Assembly: GCA_012523775.1 (NCBI GenBank) | Contig: JAAYTK010000043.1 | Coordinates: forward strand, 1-34,357 | Direction of reading: 5' to 3' | Origin: Clostridiales bacterium | GTDB lineage: Bacteria > Bacillota > Clostridia > Lachnospirales > Lachnospiraceae | DNA length: 34,357 nucleotides | Shown: positions 977-16,463 of the stretch, one piece after another | Position numbering within the stretch: the stretch's first letter is position 1 | Layout of the letters: every line of letters starts with the position of its first letter | Position numbers and translations under genes: made by a program | Notes under the pieces: generated by a model | What the model was told of the DNA's origin: nothing | Database searches by the model: none | What the model saw: the letters and a program-made list of their open reading frames with translations, nothing else

Positions 977-1768
977 TTATTTAATAATATCAATAGCAAG
1001 ATAGCTTACTCCCGCAATCAGAGCCGCTTTGGCAAAATCAATATTATCTGTTACAAGGTACTTTCCATTTTGTTGCTTTACCTTAATCGCATTGTCACTG
1101 ATACAAACCGTATCTTTCAGCTCTTTCACCAAATCCCTTAGGCGCTCATTGTCATCCTCTGTCAGAGCTTCAAATATCAGGCTCTTAGGGGAAACGAGTA
1201 TTTTTGTTGTATACTGTGGATTATCATAATATTTTCTGGCTTCCTCCATCACAATATCAGCTATGGTATCAGGATCACAATAGGTGCTGTCTATAATTAA
1301 ATTGTAGTTATTAAAATCCATATAATTAAGATTATAGATTTCTTTATAGCGTATACTCTCAGTCTTTGCCCGCTCCGCAAGCAACTCCTTTGCCTCCTCA
1401 ATGGAAGAATACCTCTCTACAGAACCTCTTTGATCCTTAATTATACGCTCAGCCGCCACATCCAGACTTACGGATACAAAAACCTTGAAGGATTCTTCGG
1501 CAAAATGCCATGCCAGTCTGGAGTCAAAGATAATATTCTTATCTTTATGAACTCTTGAAATCATTGTGGTTTCATCATCTATCATATGATCATATTTACG
1601 GTCGCTCATCATTAATTGATTAAGTTCTAAGGTACTAAGATTCATCTTGGCGGCAAGCTCTCTTTGAACCTTTCCGGTAGAATAAATCTCAAAGGAGTAT
1701 TTTTCACTTATAATCCTACCTATGGTTGACTTACCGCTTCCCAAGTTACCTGTTATTGTTATATGCAT
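977..1768 (-). CDS. Cytidylate kinase-like P-loop nucleotide kinase with C-terminal extension
   Basis: The protein has 263 residues. A Walker A motif (GNLGSGKST, residues 7-15) sits at the very N-terminus. The layout up to about residue 180 (an ERxLA-like helix, a DSRLAWHF segment near 82-89, a DQRGSVERY lid-like segment) resembles cytidylate kinase-like proteins, which phosphorylate CMP or dCMP or have an unknown substrate. Residues about 185-263 form an extra domain not present in a normal 220-residue Cmk. It is probably not the housekeeping cmk, because NMP-binding residues are not clearly conserved. It has its own promoter (1807-1835) and a good ribosome binding site (AAAGGAAGG), so it appears to be transcribed alone. 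The family assignment is good; the substrate is not known. Confidence 0.75.
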   Translation of the reverse strand: MHITITGNLGSGKSTIGRIISEKYSFEIYSTGKVQRELAAKMNLSTLELNQLMMSDRKYDHMIDDETTMISRVHKDKNIIFDSRLAWHFAEESFKVFVSVSLDVAAERIIKDQRGSVERYSSIEEAKELLAERAKTESIRYKEIYNLNYMDFNNYNLIIDSTYCDPDTIADIVMEEARKYYDNPQYTTKILVSPKSLIFEALTEDDNERLRDLVKELKDTVCISDNAIKVKQQNGKYLVTDNIDFAKAALIAGVSYLAIDIIK

Positions 1769-1845: not shown

Positions 1846-2430
1846 TTATTGCCTGCTGTTTAAGTAAACCAGTTCCCCACCGAGCATAGCCACCTCATCT
1901 CTGTCATGAGTTATGACTATAAGAGTCTTTCCTTTTGTATTTTCTCTGACATAATTAACAACCTGATTTTTTAGTTTTTCATCAAGCCCCTTAAAAGGTT
2001 CATCCATAAAAAGTATGTCATATTCAGACAAGATAGCTCTGACAATAGCCACTCTTCGTCTCATGCCTCCGCTTAAAGCTCTTACAGGCTTCCCTTCATA
2101 ATCGACCAGCCCGATGTCTTCCAGATGCTTTTTGACTATTTCATCGGTTACATTACCGGAACAAACCAACAAAATATTCTTTATGGCATCCCAGTGTTCT
2201 ATTAGACGGTCCTCCTGAAATACTGCCGAGATTTTTTTATTATTAATACCTGTAATCTCACCCGAGTCGGCTTCCCATAATCCCATTAATATGTTTATCA
2301 GAGTTGTCTTACCCACCCCGGAGGCTCCCATTATACATGTGATTTTTCCCTCAGAAAATGACATGCTTACATCACTTAATACCTGCTGCCCGTTAAAGCT
2401 CTTACAGATGTTTTTCATCTTAATGCTCAT
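1846..2430 (-). CDS. ABC transporter ATP-binding protein (NitT/TauT type)
   Basis: A 194-residue ATPase that would power import by the adjoining permease and lipoprotein. All motifs are visible: Walker A GASGVGKTT (about 35-43), Q-loop AVFQEDRL, signature LSGGM (about 120-124), Walker B ILFMDEPF and H-loop ITHD. It is shorter than the usual 240-260 residues of SsuB/TauB/ThiZ-type ATPases because the C-terminal part after the H-loop is almost absent; the catalytic core is intact. The start overlaps the permease gene by 11 bp, which suggests translational coupling. It is the last gene of the module that begins with the TM1266-type regulator. The substrate cannot be read from this subunit. Confidence 0.9.
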   Translation of the reverse strand: MSIKMKNICKSFNGQQVLSDVSMSFSEGKITCIMGASGVGKTTLINILMGLWEADSGEITGINNKKISAVFQEDRLIEHWDAIKNILLVCSGNVTDEIVKKHLEDIGLVDYEGKPVRALSGGMRRRVAIVRAILSEYDILFMDEPFKGLDEKLKNQVVNYVRENTKGKTLIVITHDRDEVAMLGGELVYLNSRQ

Positions 2431-3184
2431 GGTTTATCCCCCTTTTCATGATTAAAGGAAGAACTTTCATCACAATAAATTCAAATAATACGCTTAAGAG
2501 AATTATAACTACCGTCCAGGCAAACAGCTCCTTGGTCATAAGATAGAGCTTGGACTCATATAGATTTATTCCGATTGAATTTACAGGCCGTCCGATAACC
2601 TCTGCTGCTATTCCCGACTTAAAGCTAAATCCAAGTCCAATCGATATCGCAGATATAATAAAGGGTAAAACCGTTGGAAAGTATATTGCCCTTATGCGCT
2701 TCCATCTGTTAATACGAAACACCCTCGACATCTCCAGCAGCTTTTGGTCTATGCTTTTTAGCCCCTGCAATATGTTTGAATATGATACGGGAAGCACCAT
2801 TAAGAATGCAATTAAAACTGATAGATTAACCGCGCTTATCCAGACTAATGCCAATATAATAAAGGATGCCACCGGTGTTGCCTTTATCACCTTCATTAAG
2901 GGTGACAATAATTCATATACCACTTTGCTTTTGTAGGATATAAGAGCAAGCACTGCCCCGATAATCAATCCCAGGAAAAAACCAAGGATAATTCTAATGA
3001 AGGAATTTCCTATGCTAATCCAAAATGTCGTATTCTTACCAATCTCAAATATAGTAGTAAGAACACTTATGGGCGAGGGCAAAAACAGTTCCTGATTAAT
3101 TATTCTGCTTAATACCCCCCATATAATTATCCAAAAACAGAGAACCATCAGCCTTAAACCGGCTCTCTTAAACCATTTCTCCAT
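2420..3184 (-). CDS. ABC transporter permease (NitT/TauT, BPD_transp_1 type)
   Basis: A 254-residue inner-membrane permease. About six hydrophobic helices are visible, starting at residues 11-28 (LRLMVLCFWIIIWGVLS). A segment near 160-175 (RVFRINRWKRIRAIYFPTVL) matches the EAA loop, which docks onto the ATPase in binding-protein-dependent permeases. ATPVASFIILALVW in the middle is typical of the SsuC/TauC/ThiX group that moves sulfonates, taurine, pyrimidine precursors and similar solutes. The start is backed by a good ribosome binding site (AGAGGTGAG). It lies 12 bp after the solute-binding protein gene and overlaps the ATPase gene. Likely homodimeric, since only one permease gene is present. 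Confidence 0.9.
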   Translation of the reverse strand: MEKWFKRAGLRLMVLCFWIIIWGVLSRIINQELFLPSPISVLTTIFEIGKNTTFWISIGNSFIRIILGFFLGLIIGAVLALISYKSKVVYELLSPLMKVIKATPVASFIILALVWISAVNLSVLIAFLMVLPVSYSNILQGLKSIDQKLLEMSRVFRINRWKRIRAIYFPTVLPFIISAISIGLGFSFKSGIAAEVIGRPVNSIGINLYESKLYLMTKELFAWTVVIILLSVLFEFIVMKVLPLIMKRGINHEH

Positions 3185-3196
3185 AATCTCACCTCT

Positions 3197-4297
3197 TTAG
3201 GAACGGGAGTCTCCTTCAGCCATATAGTAAAAATCATCTGCAGGTAAGGCTCCCCCGACCGCATTGGGATTCTGCTCATACAGAACATTCAGATAGCCTT
3301 CAACCATTTCCTTCATCCTTGAGTCTCTAATTAATGTAATATTACAAAACGGAATGGCTTTCTTTGCCACAGCCGCCTTAAATAATCCAAACTTCTCTAT
3401 AAGCTCAGCCGCTTTATCCACATCATTATTTACGAATTCCGCACTTTTTTCATATTCTGATAGAAAATCCCGGACTGCCTCAGGATAATTCTTAAGGAAC
3501 TCACTGTTAACGACTACCACACCCGTAACCACACCGGTGTCTTGATTTTGGGCTGTCCACTCCTTTTCAATATCAATTGCTATCCTTACCCTCTCATTAT
3601 TCATCATCACAGTGGTCACATATGGCTGTGGCAGCATTGCTACTGCATCTGTGGAATTTTCAAGTACGGCTGCAACCTCAGTAGCCTCGGTTTTATACTC
3701 GATTGTTAAGTCCTTCTCGGGGTCCAGCCCATATAAGCTAAGAAGATAGTTAAGTGTATACTGAGGCGTCGTTCCATAACCTGTGGAGTATATCGTCTTA
3801 CCTCTAAGGTCCTCTATCTCATTAATATTGCTACCTGTTTCGACAATATAAAGAACACCCAGGGTATTTATGCCTGCTATCTTAATCTGACCCTCGGTCT
3901 TGTTATACAAAACCGATGCCAGATTACACGGAACGGCCGCAATATCAAACTCTCCCTTAACTAAGCCTGTACTGATAATGTCTGCTTCTCCAGCTACGGT
4001 AAATTTATAATTGTGGAGCGTATCGTTTTTCTCTGCATCCTCCATTAATTTAACCATTCCCATTCCGGTAGGTCCTTTTAAAGCAGCTATATTAATATCA
4101 ACCTTTTCCTTTTCATCGCTAATATCATCACTTAATAAGCCTTTATCACTGTTTGTTTCCTCTTTGGTCTCACCGATATTTTGATTATTGGGTATATTAT
4201 CCTTCTTATTGCATCCGCCTATAGCCGTAACTGTAAATAATAAAATTGTTGTCATAATAAGAATAAGCCTTGTTTTTTTAGTCATTTTAATCTTCAT
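3197..4297 (-). CDS. Solute-binding lipoprotein of NitT/TauT-type ABC transporter
   Basis: A 366-residue exported binding protein. The N-terminus has several lysines, a hydrophobic stretch (residues about 11-27) and a lipobox-like AIGGC, so it should be lipid-anchored at about Cys29. A Ser/Asn/Asp/Glu-rich linker follows, then a two-lobed periplasmic-binding fold with features of the NMT1/SsuA group (GPTGMGMVKLMED, a DIAAVPCNLASVLYN turn, DLRGKTIYSTG). Alternative starts at 4297 and 4285 are possible: the GGAGG is very close to the first and about 13 bases from the second. The ligand is unknown. The gene is directly after the TM1266-type regulator gene, and the operon has a switch-like leader, which suggests that expression follows a metabolite or metal status. 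Confidence 0.88.
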   Translation of the reverse strand: MKIKMTKKTRLILIMTTILLFTVTAIGGCNKKDNIPNNQNIGETKEETNSDKGLLSDDISDEKEKVDINIAALKGPTGMGMVKLMEDAEKNDTLHNYKFTVAGEADIISTGLVKGEFDIAAVPCNLASVLYNKTEGQIKIAGINTLGVLYIVETGSNINEIEDLRGKTIYSTGYGTTPQYTLNYLLSLYGLDPEKDLTIEYKTEATEVAAVLENSTDAVAMLPQPYVTTVMMNNERVRIAIDIEKEWTAQNQDTGVVTGVVVVNSEFLKNYPEAVRDFLSEYEKSAEFVNNDVDKAAELIEKFGLFKAAVAKKAIPFCNITLIRDSRMKEMVEGYLNVLYEQNPNAVGGALPADDFYYMAEGDSRS

Positions 4298-4305
4298 TCC
4301 TCCGT

Positions 4306-4551
4306 TTATTTTTTAGAATATATGGTCTTTACACTTACTCCCTTAAGCATACCCAACTTGCCTGACAGGGAGCTTATCACATCCTGCTCGGCATGAATTA
4401 CAATGCTTATGATACTGATGTTTTTTTCACGGTAAGGGATTCCCATTCGGCCGATTATATCGTCCTTGTATTCATGAAGCAATTTATTTAGCTTTTCTAC
4501 CGAATCGGTATCCTCTACAATAATACCTATCTGTGCAATCCTCTTATCCAT
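4306..4551 (-). CDS. TM1266-type putative iron-only hydrogenase system regulator
   Basis: A small 81-residue protein with an ACT-like/NikR-C-like alternating pattern: a first strand RIAQIGIIVED, a helix with SVEKLNKLLHEYKDDIIGRMGIP, then ISIISIVIHAE and a second helix ending GMLKGVSVKTIYSKK. This matches the family named after Thermotoga TM1266, usually found near genes for FeFe-hydrogenase or its maturases. Its biochemical role is not established; it is called a regulator by its fold. Here it is the first gene of an ABC transporter operon, with a strong ribosome binding site (GGAGGTAAACAA before ATG), and no hydrogenase gene lies in the window. Family assignment is good; function is inferred. 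Confidence 0.8.
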   Translation of the reverse strand: MDKRIAQIGIIVEDTDSVEKLNKLLHEYKDDIIGRMGIPYREKNISIISIVIHAEQDVISSLSGKLGMLKGVSVKTIYSKK

Positions 4552-4599
4552 TTGTTTACCTCCAAATACATATCCATGTAAAGCGCTTTATTGAACAAT

Positions 4600-4712
4600 A
4601 AAAAACTATGCCATAGACATTTTATAGCCAACGGCATAGGGATTAATAATAGGTACTTCTTATGCTATACTATCCTATGCCTCTCTGTCAGATACTTCTT
4701 CCAGATTGGCTT
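4600..4712 (-). promoter_or_regulatory. Structured 5' leader with switchable intrinsic terminator (candidate riboswitch, class not recognised)
   Basis: In the transcript starting near 4712, AGCCAA (4711-4706) can pair with UUGGCU (4631-4626), enclosing an 8-bp perfect stem GGCAUAGG (4681-4674) with CCUAUGCC (4640-4633). A short UCUG/CAGA stem could make it a three-way junction. The same CUAUGCC (4639-4633) can instead pair with a later GGCAUAG (4612-4606), which is followed at once by six U (4605-4600): an intrinsic terminator. The two pairings exclude each other, the hallmark of a transcription attenuator or riboswitch. I compared it from memory with SAM, TPP, FMN, lysine, purine, guanidine, cobalamin, preQ1 and GEMM signatures and saw no match. 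A protein-bound leader is an alternative. Confidence 0.6.
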
Positions 4713-4717
4713 TGCTA

Positions 4718-4746
4718 ATTCTAGCACATTGTTAATTTATTGTCAA
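4718..4746 (-). promoter_or_regulatory. Consensus sigma-A promoter for the TM1266-ABC operon
   Basis: On the minus strand, a perfect TTGACA (4746-4741), a 17-bp spacer and TAGAAT (4723-4718). Transcription should start near 4712, giving a leader of about 160 nt before the ATG at 4551. It begins only 20 bp after the response regulator stop codon, so the ABC operon is separately controlled. Confidence 0.85.
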
Positions 4747-4766: not shown

Positions 4767-5456
4767 TTAAACTTTAAATCTATACCCCACTCCCCAAATC
4801 GTCTCTATATATTGGGGCTTCGAGGTATTGTATTCTATTTTTTCACGGATTTTCTTAATATGTACAGTTACGGTAGCAATATCTCCGATAGACTCCATAT
4901 CCCATATTTCCCTAAAGAGCTCTTCCTTGGTAAATACATGATTGGGATTCTCAGCCAAAAATGTCAGAAGATCAAATTCCTTAGTGGTAAATATCCTTTC
5001 CTCATCATTAATAAATACTCTTCTGGCTGTCTTATCAATCTTAAGGCCTCTGATTTCTATAATCTCATTCTCTTTTTGTCCGGAGCCGATTAAGCGCTCA
5101 TATCTGGAAAGATGGGCTTTTACTCTTGCAACCAGCTCACTGGGGCTAAACGGCTTGGTTATATAATCATCTGCACCCATACCTAAGCCTCGGATTTTAT
5201 CAATATCGTCCTTCTTTGCCGTTACCATTATAACAGGTATGTTTTTTTCCTGTCTGATACGTTTACATATTTCAAAGCCGTCCATACCGGGTAGCATTAA
5301 ATCCAGAATTATGAGATTAAAATCCTCCTTCAATGCCCTGTCGACTCCAACATCTCCACATGTCTCTACTTCAACTTCAAAGCCTGAAAGCTCCAAGTAA
5401 TCCTTTTCCAGCTCAGCTATGGCTAACTCATCTTCAATAATTAGAATCCGTTTCAT
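4767..5456 (-). CDS. OmpR/PhoB-family response regulator
   Basis: A 229-residue DNA-binding response regulator. The receiver domain (about 1-118) has the acidic pair E8/D9, the phospho-acceptor D52 in LDLMLPG, T79 and K101 in the KPF turn. The C-terminal winged helix (about 130-229) has the typical end TVTVHIKKIREKIE...IETIWGVGYRF. It is the partner of the sensor kinase whose gene ends 32 bp upstream, and it carries a clear ribosome binding site (AAGGAGG). Target genes are unknown; the ABC transporter operon that follows is an obvious candidate by position only. Confidence 0.95.
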   Translation of the reverse strand: MKRILIIEDELAIAELEKDYLELSGFEVEVETCGDVGVDRALKEDFNLIILDLMLPGMDGFEICKRIRQEKNIPVIMVTAKKDDIDKIRGLGMGADDYITKPFSPSELVARVKAHLSRYERLIGSGQKENEIIEIRGLKIDKTARRVFINDEERIFTTKEFDLLTFLAENPNHVFTKEELFREIWDMESIGDIATVTVHIKKIREKIEYNTSKPQYIETIWGVGYRFKV

Positions 5457-5488
5457 TTCATTCCTCCTTATCTAAGGTATAAAGCTAT

Positions 5489-6964
5489 CTAATCTGCTTT
5501 CTTTAAAGTGAAGCTGATGGTAGTTCCTTTGCCTCTTTTACTGGTGGCCCATATCTTACCAAAATGATCCTCAATTACCTTCTTTGCTATGGCAAGACCT
5601 AAGCCACTTCCCCCGGTCTTTGTACTTCTGGAGGCGTCTGCTCTATAAAAACGGTCAAATATATATGGTAGCTCTTCCTCTTCAATTCCTGCTCCGTTGT
5701 CCTTAATATCTACCTGAACATACTCCTCGTTATCTACTATTCGAATTTTAATATGACCCTCCGGCTTATCAAGATATTTTACAGAATTGCCAATAATATT
5801 ATGAATTACTCTTTTTAGCTGTTCTGCATCGGCAACCACCTTTACATCATGATCCACCAGGTTCTCATATATAACCCTGATATTCTTAACCTCAAGCTCC
5901 AGATATAAATCCTCCACACAATCCTCAAAATAATCCGACAGGTTTATGGGTGTAAATGAATATGGAATTGTGTTGCTGTCTATTTTAGCATAATATGCAA
6001 GCTCATCCACAAGCACGGACATATCATTTGCCTTCATATAAATGGTTTTAAGATATTTCTCCTGTTTTTCCATGGTATCGGCCACACCGTCAATCAATCC
6101 CTCGGAATATCCTTTAATGGCAGTAAGCGGCGTCTTCAGATCATGGGATATATTGCTGATAAGCTCCTTTATCTCCTCTTCATATTGAAGTCTGTCTTCG
6201 ATGAGCTTCTTTAGACGTAATCTCATATTTTCAAAATCATTGCACAACTGACCTATCTCATCGTTTGTATATGGTTCAACAGAATAGTCAAGGTCTCCCT
6301 CCTTGATATGGTCAGTTGCAATCCTAAGAATATTCATAGGTTTGAGTATACTTCTGTAAATCCAGAATATAAGAAGACTGGCTGTAAAGAAAAGAATTAC
6401 AACAAATGAGATTACGCTTTGAATCGCTACGGCCTTAAGCTGTGGCATAAGAACATTAAGGTCTGTTATTACATATATCGTTCCATTGCTACCATCGGTA
6501 TATGTAAAATCCTGTAGCTTTACCAGAAACGGTTCTCTTCCACCCAAATAGATTCCACCGTCAACCTCAGTACTTCCCGTTCCGTAATGGGGAAGTAAGT
6601 CTTTAATCGAATCCAACTTCTCTTTATTACCTATAAATATAAATTCATCATCCTTACGAACCAGTAAAAACGAGTGCTTGTTCTCCAGCAGATCATTCAG
6701 CTCACTGTAATAATCAGAATCGCTAAGCTTTTCCGGAAGATTTAACGAGTATAGCTTTATCTCATTAAAGATTCCTCTTGTTATTCTGTTAAGTATCTGA
6801 ATGGGATTTGTGATTACCTGTAAGGTTTTAGCCTCCACATCATAGGATTCATGAATGGAATCCATCTGAAAACGAACTATGGTCCCGGCTGTTATAGATA
6901 TCAAAATCACCGGCATAGCTATCATAATTAGAAACGCTATAATTAATCGATGCTTGAGCTTCAT
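5489..6964 (-). CDS. Membrane sensor histidine kinase
   Basis: A 491-residue sensor kinase. A first membrane helix (about 8-31) and a second (about 184-205) enclose an extracellular sensor part of about 150 residues. A HAMP domain follows (about 205-258), then the dimerisation domain with the phosphorylated His274 in SHDLKTPL, and the ATPase domain with N-box (about 386-394), DNGAGI (422-427) and GGSGLGLAI (451-459). All catalytic motifs are present. It starts 27 bp after metK with an AGGTGA ribosome binding site and no intervening terminator or promoter that I can see, so it is probably co-transcribed with metK under the SAM-I riboswitch. The signal sensed cannot be read from the sequence. 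Confidence 0.93.
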   Translation of the reverse strand: MKLKHRLIIAFLIMIAMPVILISITAGTIVRFQMDSIHESYDVEAKTLQVITNPIQILNRITRGIFNEIKLYSLNLPEKLSDSDYYSELNDLLENKHSFLLVRKDDEFIFIGNKEKLDSIKDLLPHYGTGSTEVDGGIYLGGREPFLVKLQDFTYTDGSNGTIYVITDLNVLMPQLKAVAIQSVISFVVILFFTASLLIFWIYRSILKPMNILRIATDHIKEGDLDYSVEPYTNDEIGQLCNDFENMRLRLKKLIEDRLQYEEEIKELISNISHDLKTPLTAIKGYSEGLIDGVADTMEKQEKYLKTIYMKANDMSVLVDELAYYAKIDSNTIPYSFTPINLSDYFEDCVEDLYLELEVKNIRVIYENLVDHDVKVVADAEQLKRVIHNIIGNSVKYLDKPEGHIKIRIVDNEEYVQVDIKDNGAGIEEEELPYIFDRFYRADASRSTKTGGSGLGLAIAKKVIEDHFGKIWATSKRGKGTTISFTLKKAD

Positions 6965-8299: not shown

Positions 8300-8397
8300 C
8301 TCTTATTGTTCGATTACTCGCTCAGGCTGGCACCTTCCATTAAATGGGGTTGCCGTGACTTCATCGAGCCTTACCTCTCCATCACTCTGAATAAGAG
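8300..8397 (-). promoter_or_regulatory. SAM-I (S-box) riboswitch aptamer
   Basis: The closing stem is CTCTTAT (8397-8391) with ATAAGAG (8306-8300). Inside are the conserved S-box blocks on the minus strand: AGAGTGATGGAGAGG, a GGCTCGATGAAGTCACGGCAACC-like stretch (8354-8376), an AAGGTGCCA block and the GAGCGAG junction. It senses SAM and controls metK, with the terminator at 8252-8280 as its output. Probably also controls the downstream kinase and response regulator genes by read-through. Confidence 0.95.
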
Positions 8398-16195: not shown

Positions 16196-16463
16196 ATCCG
16201 TGCATTCTGCTTCGAATGCTTACCACAAGCGTTACCTTTACAGTTAACTCAGCCCAGGTGACCTTACGGCACACAGAAGCTTTCGCTTAGTGCTGCTTCA
16301 TTCCTGACCTGACACGGTTCACGAATTTCTGTTGCGTAAGACCCAGACGTCAACATCACTTATAAAGGGCAGCCTCACAGCAAATCACCCTAGGCAGAAT
16401 ATCACCCCTGCTGTAGCGGATTGCAGGTACAGGGCACCGCTATCTCCCCGGCTGCACGGAAAC
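16196..16463 (-). ncRNA. ffs: Signal recognition particle RNA, large Bacillus/Clostridium type
   Basis: About 268 nt. The ends pair (TCCGTGCA near 16460 with TGCACGGA near 16197). The Alu-like domain block GGTGCCCTGTACCTGCAATC (about 16437-16418) and the later TGTTGACGTCTGGGTC, ACGCTTGTGGTAAGC and CTGGGCTGAG blocks match the B. subtilis scRNA closely. The Ffh-binding hairpin GTCAGGTCAGGAATGAAGCA (about 16313-16294) has the GGAA loop; its closing pair is A-U here instead of the usual C-G, a compensated change. It works with Ffh in membrane targeting of nascent proteins. The position next to tadA is the same as in Bacillus. The ends are approximate. Confidence 0.95.

Follow-up and report, generated by a model that had tools for sequence, protein, structure and literature searches.

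Upstream of a gene for a TM1266 family protein and an ABC importer operon, contig JAAYTK010000043.1 of a Clostridiales bacterium (34,357 nt; this entire stretch is referred to here as the window) carries a leader that a first-pass annotation, made from the letters alone, described as a candidate new riboswitch or transcription attenuator of metabolite-sensing layout. Does this leader belong to a real and hitherto undescribed family of regulatory RNAs, how would such an RNA control the genes behind it, and what does it bind?

The locus lies on the minus strand of the window. Its promoter (4718..4746), identified by a promoter scan, comprises TTGACA (4746-4741), a 17-nt spacer and TAGAAT (4723-4718), and the leaders of the nearest relatives that reach that far have similar letters. 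The promoter noted earlier is thus present, although it is near-consensus rather than perfect, with 11 of 12 matches and a TG ahead of the -10 box; the remaining 15 promoter-like sites in the window have nine matches each, and shuffled sequences are expected to contain 15.8 sites with at least nine. From the probable transcription start near 4711 to the U-run of the terminator, the leader RNA spans 4600..4711 (about 110 nt), as judged from its fold and from a match to the model R1 described below. The genes that follow, in this order, encode a TM1266 family protein of 81 amino acids (4306..4551; TIGR03959 at 120.1 bits, PF21699, PDB 2nzc), that is, a putative iron-only hydrogenase system regulator with a NikR C-terminal-like fold; an NMT1/SsuA-like ABC solute-binding lipoprotein (3197..4297; NMT1 above the Pfam cut-off, SsuA_fam below its own); an ABC permease (2420..3184); and an ABC ATPase (1846..2430), the last two assigned by domain matches. 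A gene for a cytidylate-kinase-like protein (977-1768, minus strand) lies directly behind the ABC operon.

Every helix and repeat listed in the first-pass annotation was located in the leader: AGCCAA/UUGGCU, GGCAUAGG/CCUAUGCC, UCUG/CAGA, a later GGCAUAG before six U, and two copies of AAGAAGUA. Compared with dinucleotide shuffles, the region 4592-4712 folds with a z-score of -3.2 (1 of 200 shuffles equally good), and 4620-4712, the part before the terminator, with a z-score of -3.5 (0 of 200). The two folds that had been predicted to be mutually exclusive are indeed so, with full-leader energies of -29.6 kcal/mol for the antiterminator fold and -34.0 kcal/mol for the terminator fold. The first hairpin, hereafter core 1, occupies 4679..4710 and reads GCC-AA-UCUG-GA-AGA-AGUA-UCU-GA-CAGA-GA-GGC; it is assigned from the fold and from a match to the core model R2 (4675-4714; see below). 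Its 3' strand overlaps the antiterminator that pairs with the downstream terminator: the terminal GGC of core 1 doubles as part of the antiterminator 5' arm GGCAUAGG (4674..4681), an assignment based on the fold and on the pairing test at other loci. The partner, CCUAUGCC (4633..4640), is both the antiterminator 3' arm and the terminator 5' arm, in agreement with the fold and with the terminator helix of relatives. The intrinsic terminator itself, CUAUGCC...GGCAUAG-UUUUUU (4600..4639), follows from the fold and from the corresponding helix in 21 relatives; a simple terminator scan does not list it because its loop is longer than the scan permits.

The leader had been said to show none of the familiar signatures of SAM, TPP, FMN, purine, lysine, cobalamin, guanidine, preQ1 or GEMM RNAs, and covariance searches of the window, the leader, and the genus and core loci bear this out. 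No Rfam 15 family reaches its gathering score at the leader; the search of the whole window at gathering scores returned only, elsewhere, a bacterial large SRP RNA (16198-16459, minus strand) and a SAM riboswitch (8300-8397, minus strand) ahead of the gene 8197-6992, which, judging from its translation, presumably encodes an S-adenosylmethionine synthetase. At E<=5, the leader has five weak Rfam matches, all far under the gathering scores; 20 genus loci at gathering scores and 20 diverse core loci at E<=0.5 have none. In the absence of any covariance match, the known Rfam classes (SAM, TPP, FMN, cobalamin, T-box and others) were ruled out. Literature searches returned no paper that, in the portions available, was recognizable as a description of the motif, and none that ties the TM1266 family to an RNA; in the main texts of PMC8632094, PMC6429828 and PMC10043782, a search by term found none of 'hydrogenase', 'hydE' and 'hydG', and the first two also lack 'TM1266'. 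Within the limits of Rfam 15 and of these paper searches, the RNA family is apparently undescribed.

Comparison with relatives redefines the conserved element. Within the genus, 32 of 34 genomes have the binding protein, as against 120 of 299 across the family. Most of the genus leaders that precede TM1266 share a hairpin, GCCAA-stem-AAGG..CCUGA-stem-AAGGCAUAGG, which is followed by a middle domain and then by CCCUAUGCC..GGCAUAGGG-U-run. Alignment A1 was compiled from 21 of the 35 leaders with an adjacent TM1266, omitting the window itself (L008), ten divergent or cut leaders (L012, L020, L022, L023, L025, L027, L036, L048, L058 and L059), and L039, L041 and L047. Its covariation is 0.240, compared with 0.151+-0.010 for shuffles and at most 0.100 for slid partners; both sides change at 13 of 30 pairs, and 100% of the cells in the terminator helix are paired. 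Model R1, from which the window was left out, hits it at 4597-4719 with 71.1 bits (E 2.0e-10), the sole R1 match at E<=0.1 in the genome, and finds 31 of 34 genus genomes at that threshold, 21 of these leaders having contributed to the model.

The layout that had been drawn around P1, the AGCCAA/UUGGCU helix, did not hold up as a conserved structure. Of 28 genus leaders, four (those of the window, L038, L041 and L042) have a UUGGC partner for AGCCAA that is distinct from the terminator arms, and a 4-bp remnant of the helix persists in L039; a pattern-only flag gave 12 such leaders, a number that includes terminator arms. In the window, UUGGCU (4626..4631), partner of AGCCAA (4706-4711), is accordingly a clade-specific extension of the antiterminated fold, and a three-stem aptamer is ruled out as the conserved structure. 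The doubled AAGAAGUA was likewise discarded as a motif, being present in 1 of 28 genus leaders, that of the window. Conservation is wide for three parts, namely UCUG/CAGA (which forms the inner stem of core 1), the terminator and the GGCAUAGG/CCUAUGCC switch; the conserved unit is a symmetric hairpin.

Across the family, R1 matches 22 of 299 genomes at E<=0.1, and many of the weak matches proved on reading to be mere terminators or other leaders, for example, those of L073, L083 and L084, which precede what we take to be L10-like ribosomal genes. For this reason, a model of the core only was built. TM1266 leaders of other genera contain a single hairpin of about 40 nt that consists of CUGA, a helix of 3-4 bp, AAAGG, a loop, CCUGA, the helix partner and AAAGG. 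Each strand thus reads approximately CCUGA-N4-AAAGG, and the hairpin is two-fold pseudo-symmetric, with two inverted purine-rich internal loops; the loops vary in length and base content, by eye, in both A1 and A3. Alignment A3, from which the core model R2 was built, holds 35 of 54 located hand-picked cores (1 of 55 typed was not located), and its covariation over these 35 hand-picked sequences is 0.470, compared with 0.227+-0.020 shuffled and at most 0.189 slid.

In several genus leaders, R2 matches both hairpins (27.3 and 20.1 bits in L040, 23.5 and 19.9 in L039, 26.2 and 19.9 in L056, 21.2 and 19.6 in L046, 32.2 and 18.4 in L048), which identifies the hairpin singled out in the first-pass annotation as core 1 and the variable middle domain as core 2, so that these relatives carry two cores in tandem. 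Alignment with five close relatives (L038-L042) indicates that the window copy has kept core 1, along with a remnant of core 2 (4650..4663, containing its 5' part AUAAGAAGUACCUA), after which about 51 nt, that is, most of core 2, are absent. A loss in the assembly is a possible cause; taken at face value, the alignment makes the window copy a naturally shortened family member, not the type specimen, and with most of core 2 absent, control there should be weaker or altered. On the 211 bases around the leader, R2 detects core 1 at 4675-4714 with 12.7 bits (E 0.006), and the whole-genome R2 search misses this core, which demonstrates that R2 is insensitive to weak cores. That same search, at E<=10, found no further credible core in the genome of the window, its sole match (L417) lying inside a coding sequence.

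For a test independent of the RNA, the TM1266 protein was the sole criterion for fetching loci, from named as well as metagenome-assembled genomes, and the best 80 of at least 583 relatives were searched with R2. At E<=1, R2 has 63 matches in these best 80, and every one of them is on the TM1266 strand. Of the 63, 55 start no more than 600 nt ahead of TM1266 (median distance, 105 nt), and they belong to 51 of the 80 loci. The next gene in these 51 loci is HydE-like in 30, HydG-like in 12, a binding protein in 5 and another gene in 4. The 62 distinct rows found by R2 in this set of 80 have a covariation of 0.588, compared with 0.212+-0.017 shuffled, in an alignment that was fitted to the structure. 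The fold of a single sequence, taken alone, would be compatible with a chance pair of hairpins devoid of function; this explanation is refuted by the covariation in A1 and by the same-strand placement of 63 of 63 matches among the best 80 of at least 583 relatives, is further at odds with the retention of the leader in 31 of 34 genus genomes (21 of whose leaders built the model), and in our estimate has next to no probability left. From these comparisons, the existence of a real cis-regulatory RNA family appears close to certain.

The core is spread through Clostridia, with few outliers. Within the 80 best of at least 583 relatives, the core turns up, for example, in Faecalicatena contorta (L350), Mobilitalea sibirica (L353), Acetobacterium bakii (L338) and Desulfosporosinus hippei (L401), and likewise in Loigolactobacillus rennini (L360) and in a genome of the Victivallales (L362). 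In the same set of 80, the core upstream of TM1266 scores 31.2 bits in the lactobacillus L360 and 29.4, 21.7 and 22.7 bits in the Lentisphaerae-like L362, L349 and L400, respectively, the last two being weak; horizontal transfer of the RNA and the gene together is possible in these four cases. In a family sample of 299 genomes from 298 genera, searched with stricter filters, 51 genomes have an R2 match at E<=0.05, and in the class 29 of 391 genomes do so at E<=0.02. Among the family hits, the contexts of 14 plus two loci were read and the others placed from coordinates, as neighbors of TM1266 or binding-protein matches, apart from G091, G250, G185 and the second hit in contig C4 of G175, which were not placed. 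In 41 of the 42 loci read, the core lies upstream of TM1266, HydE, HydG or an ABC importer operon, L288 being the exception. The genes at these 42 loci were named by eye from their translations, and a reference HydG and HydE named in this manner exceed the curated cut-offs (TIGR03955, 831 bits; TIGR03956, 603 bits). Relatives of the window leader thus also precede FeFe-hydrogenase maturase genes.

How the family would act can be read from the sequence that follows the core. A scripted search found a terminator-like hairpin after the core in 55 of 61 loci. In these 55 loci, the core 3' end (16 nt plus 12 nt downstream) pairs with the 5' arm of its own terminator with a mean energy of -12.1 kcal/mol and with those of other loci at -9.6 kcal/mol, and none of 10000 permutations was as good; in 34 of the 61 loci the core end was set at a fixed distance rather than by the model. 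The ranks of the own core among the 55 span best to worst, with a mean of 14, so the pairing relation does not hold at every locus. That pairing with the own terminator is better than with others implies that core formation and antiterminator formation compete in general, and it follows from this competition that a partner holding the core closed should favor termination. We conclude that the family very likely acts by attenuation.

A different platform is seen in L308 and L309, from one other family (f73), where the gene order is TM1266-HydE-core-HydG and the core 3' AAAGGUGG is the apparent hydG ribosome-binding site. The core 3' strand overlaps or abuts the ribosome-binding site in L308, L309 and L261, which suggests a translational version of the switch in these three loci. 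Classic expression platforms of this kind, terminators plus the apparent ribosome-binding site in L308 and L309, would equally befit a metabolite or metal riboswitch whose core, single or doubled, binds a small molecule of H-cluster assembly or the imported solute and shuts off the maturases, TM1266 and the importer, TM1266 being a member of the same pathway rather than the binder. The tandem core copies could be read in the same way, as could the occurrence behind TM1266 of the maturases and of several unrelated importer types (NMT1-like ABC, FecCD-type and a weak ECF-type match); against such an aptamer, the core is small and symmetric, and its stems are variable.

The distribution of the core among genomes bears on the choice between a small molecule and a protein. 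TM1266 is encoded in 49 of 51 R2-positive and in 103 of 248 other family genomes (Fisher 2e-14), and the two R2-positive genomes without TM1266 (G080 and G109) owe their status to chance matches inside coding sequences. All 18 R2-positive genomes chosen because the match is not obviously beside TM1266 encode this protein; its gene is no more than 1.5 kb from the match in 5 of them and elsewhere in the other 13, one of which (G365) has a chance match only, inside the end of a reading frame. HydG was sought on the TM1266-negative side of the sample only, in 80 of 147 genomes (the TM1266-positive side numbers 152), which makes the HydG comparison one-sided; it exceeds the cut-off in 30 of these 80. 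In these 30 HydG-positive, TM1266-negative genomes, R2 found no credible core (0/30), the sole match being the chance hit in G080, and 12 HydG loci of TM1266-negative genomes yielded chance scores only (E 0.7-1.9). Among binding-protein loci without an adjacent TM1266, a core at E<=0.1 is present in 8 of 26 from TM1266-positive and in 0 of 35 from TM1266-negative genomes; this table covers 61 of 66 sources, three with an adjacent TM1266 and two fetched for an RNA match being omitted. Taken together, the HydG census and the binding-protein counts show that the RNA follows TM1266 rather than HydG or the importer: in the genomes checked, the RNA is present only with the TM1266 gene. The reverse fails, in that 29 of the 80 TM1266 loci (the best 80 of at least 583) are without an upstream R2 match. 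The genomes of these 29 have an R2 match at E<=1 in 13 cases, the best of which, L405, was the one read and is a real HydE leader; all such absences depend on R2 being a short model.

The first-pass proposal of an attenuator upstream of the TM1266-ABC operon thus survives as a conserved attenuator-like leader that is absent from Rfam 15, whereas its metabolite-sensing part loses ground: an RNA that tracks the TM1266 gene rather than HydG or the ABC operon makes a protein partner at least as likely. In particular, HydG-positive genomes without TM1266 have the same maturase and 0/30 credible copies of the core, which makes a general intermediate of the H-cluster improbable as the ligand, unless TM1266 sets its level. 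Direct sensing of a metabolite or metal by the core is a serious possibility, which we nevertheless judge to fall short of probable.

Another protein of the same genomes might instead bind the core, or the core might be a processing or stability element, the TM1266 link then marking a shared gene set only. Leader RNAs for other RNA-binding proteins are common, and presence was compared with the RNA across genomes for two proteins, TM1266 and HydG. This account sits poorly with a link to TM1266 that holds across genera (298 in the sample of 299 genomes) and for loci distant from TM1266, and no other regulator gene recurs beside the RNA in the 42 loci read; we consider it unlikely.

The structure model of the window protein (mean pLDDT 96) has its best match in TM1266 of T. 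maritima (2nzc), followed chiefly by the NikR C-terminal regulatory domain, with weaker matches to ACT, ribosomal-protein and other ferredoxin-like folds. We know of no RNA-binding function for this fold. At each of the positions R4, R35, K65 and K75, at least 99% of the TM1266 proteins (best 80 of at least 583) have a basic residue. In the same set, TM1266 proteins with the RNA (52, including L327, counted as RNA-positive because of L405) and those without it (28) do not differ significantly in net charge (0.52 vs 0.04, p 0.17). In L360, an ABC ATPase (4795-5889) carries a C-terminal TM1266-like domain (PF21699, 30.0 bits, cut-off 27), a layout similar to that of ligand-sensing domains fused to importer ATPases; under the riboswitch explanation, this fusion suggests that TM1266 itself senses the solute. 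The lack of a significant charge difference and the fusion both accord with a ligand-sensing domain; neither favors RNA binding as such. In a CO2 study of Thermotoga neapolitana, TM1266 is tabulated with HydE and HydG as maturation genes, with expression changes (PMC7039931).

We propose that the leader represents a new cis-regulatory RNA family, the TM1266-linked core, which would be OFF when the core is bound, the TM1266 protein being its likeliest binder; we assign this reading a probability of about 0.5. A partner that holds the core closed would make its 3' strand unavailable as an antiterminator, the terminator would then form, and the operon would be off; with the core free, the antiterminator would form and transcription would continue. 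In L308 and L309, where the 3' strand holds the apparent hydG ribosome-binding site, an equivalent logic would operate at the level of translation. The OFF direction is deduced from the pairing pattern and is to that extent conditional. For the partner, TM1266 stands at roughly even odds: an ACT/NikR-C-like protein without a DNA-binding domain, it might bind the core with a ligand or metal bound, acting on its own operon and in trans on related operons. NikR is oligomeric, and by analogy TM1266 is expected to be so. A broader and more tentative proposal, to which we give slightly less credence, is that TM1266 binds RNA in response to a ligand or metal, recognizing a two-fold symmetric hairpin, and thereby controls FeFe-hydrogenase maturation, its own gene and, in trans, several importers, which would constitute a new class of RNA-based regulon and a new type of RNA-binding regulator, with the window copy having lost one of its two binding hairpins.

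Known systems resemble the TM1266-linked core in part. Riboswitch-type attenuators share with it a conserved hairpin, mutually exclusive antiterminator and terminator and, in some other species, a ribosome-binding-site platform, but the core is without an Rfam class and is tied to one protein gene, TM1266. In PyrR, ribosomal-protein and ANTAR-type leaders, small and sometimes doubled hairpins lie upstream of the gene of the binder and of related operons. The TM1266-linked core has hairpins that are likewise small and sometimes doubled, the comparison having been made through Rfam only; unlike in those leaders, its stem is symmetric and has two internal loops, its loop varies in length, and its proposed binder is NikR-C/ACT-like. 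ANTAR targets are dual hairpins with two hexaloops and fixed A1 and G4 loop bases; as seen by eye, the core loops vary in length and bases, and models of this class were run from Rfam only. The HMP-PP (thiS motif) RNA and other recent candidates are also terminator-linked leader RNAs, from which the core differs in being without an Rfam match. NMT1-like importers are known to occur with thiamin RNAs.

As far as the literature searched shows, in the portions available, FeFe-hydrogenase maturation genes of fermentative bacteria have so far been without a dedicated RNA regulator. The family to which the gene behind the window leader belongs (TM1266/hyd_TM1266; TIGR03959, PF21699, PDB 2nzc) is named a putative regulator and has stayed without a known mechanism although the 2nzc structure was released in 2006. 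The RNA offers a concrete candidate for the binding partner of TM1266 and defines a candidate regulon of maturases and importers, which may point to the imported solute. A new family that extends through Clostridia, with isolated lactobacillus and Lentisphaerae-like matches, should be of interest to researchers of RNA, hydrogenases and gut microbes.

The importers encoded behind the core and TM1266 are of several kinds. A FecCD-type importer follows in L286 (identified with Pfam), L360 (NCBIfam relatives), and L375 and L392 (by eye), and in L300, TM1266 is followed by an ECF-like component that scores below the Pfam cut-off. In L360 and L392, the importer is followed by genes for two further proteins, one HydE-like (radical SAM) and one NifH-like, an arrangement that suggests a second, nitrogenase-like pathway under the same RNA in these two loci.
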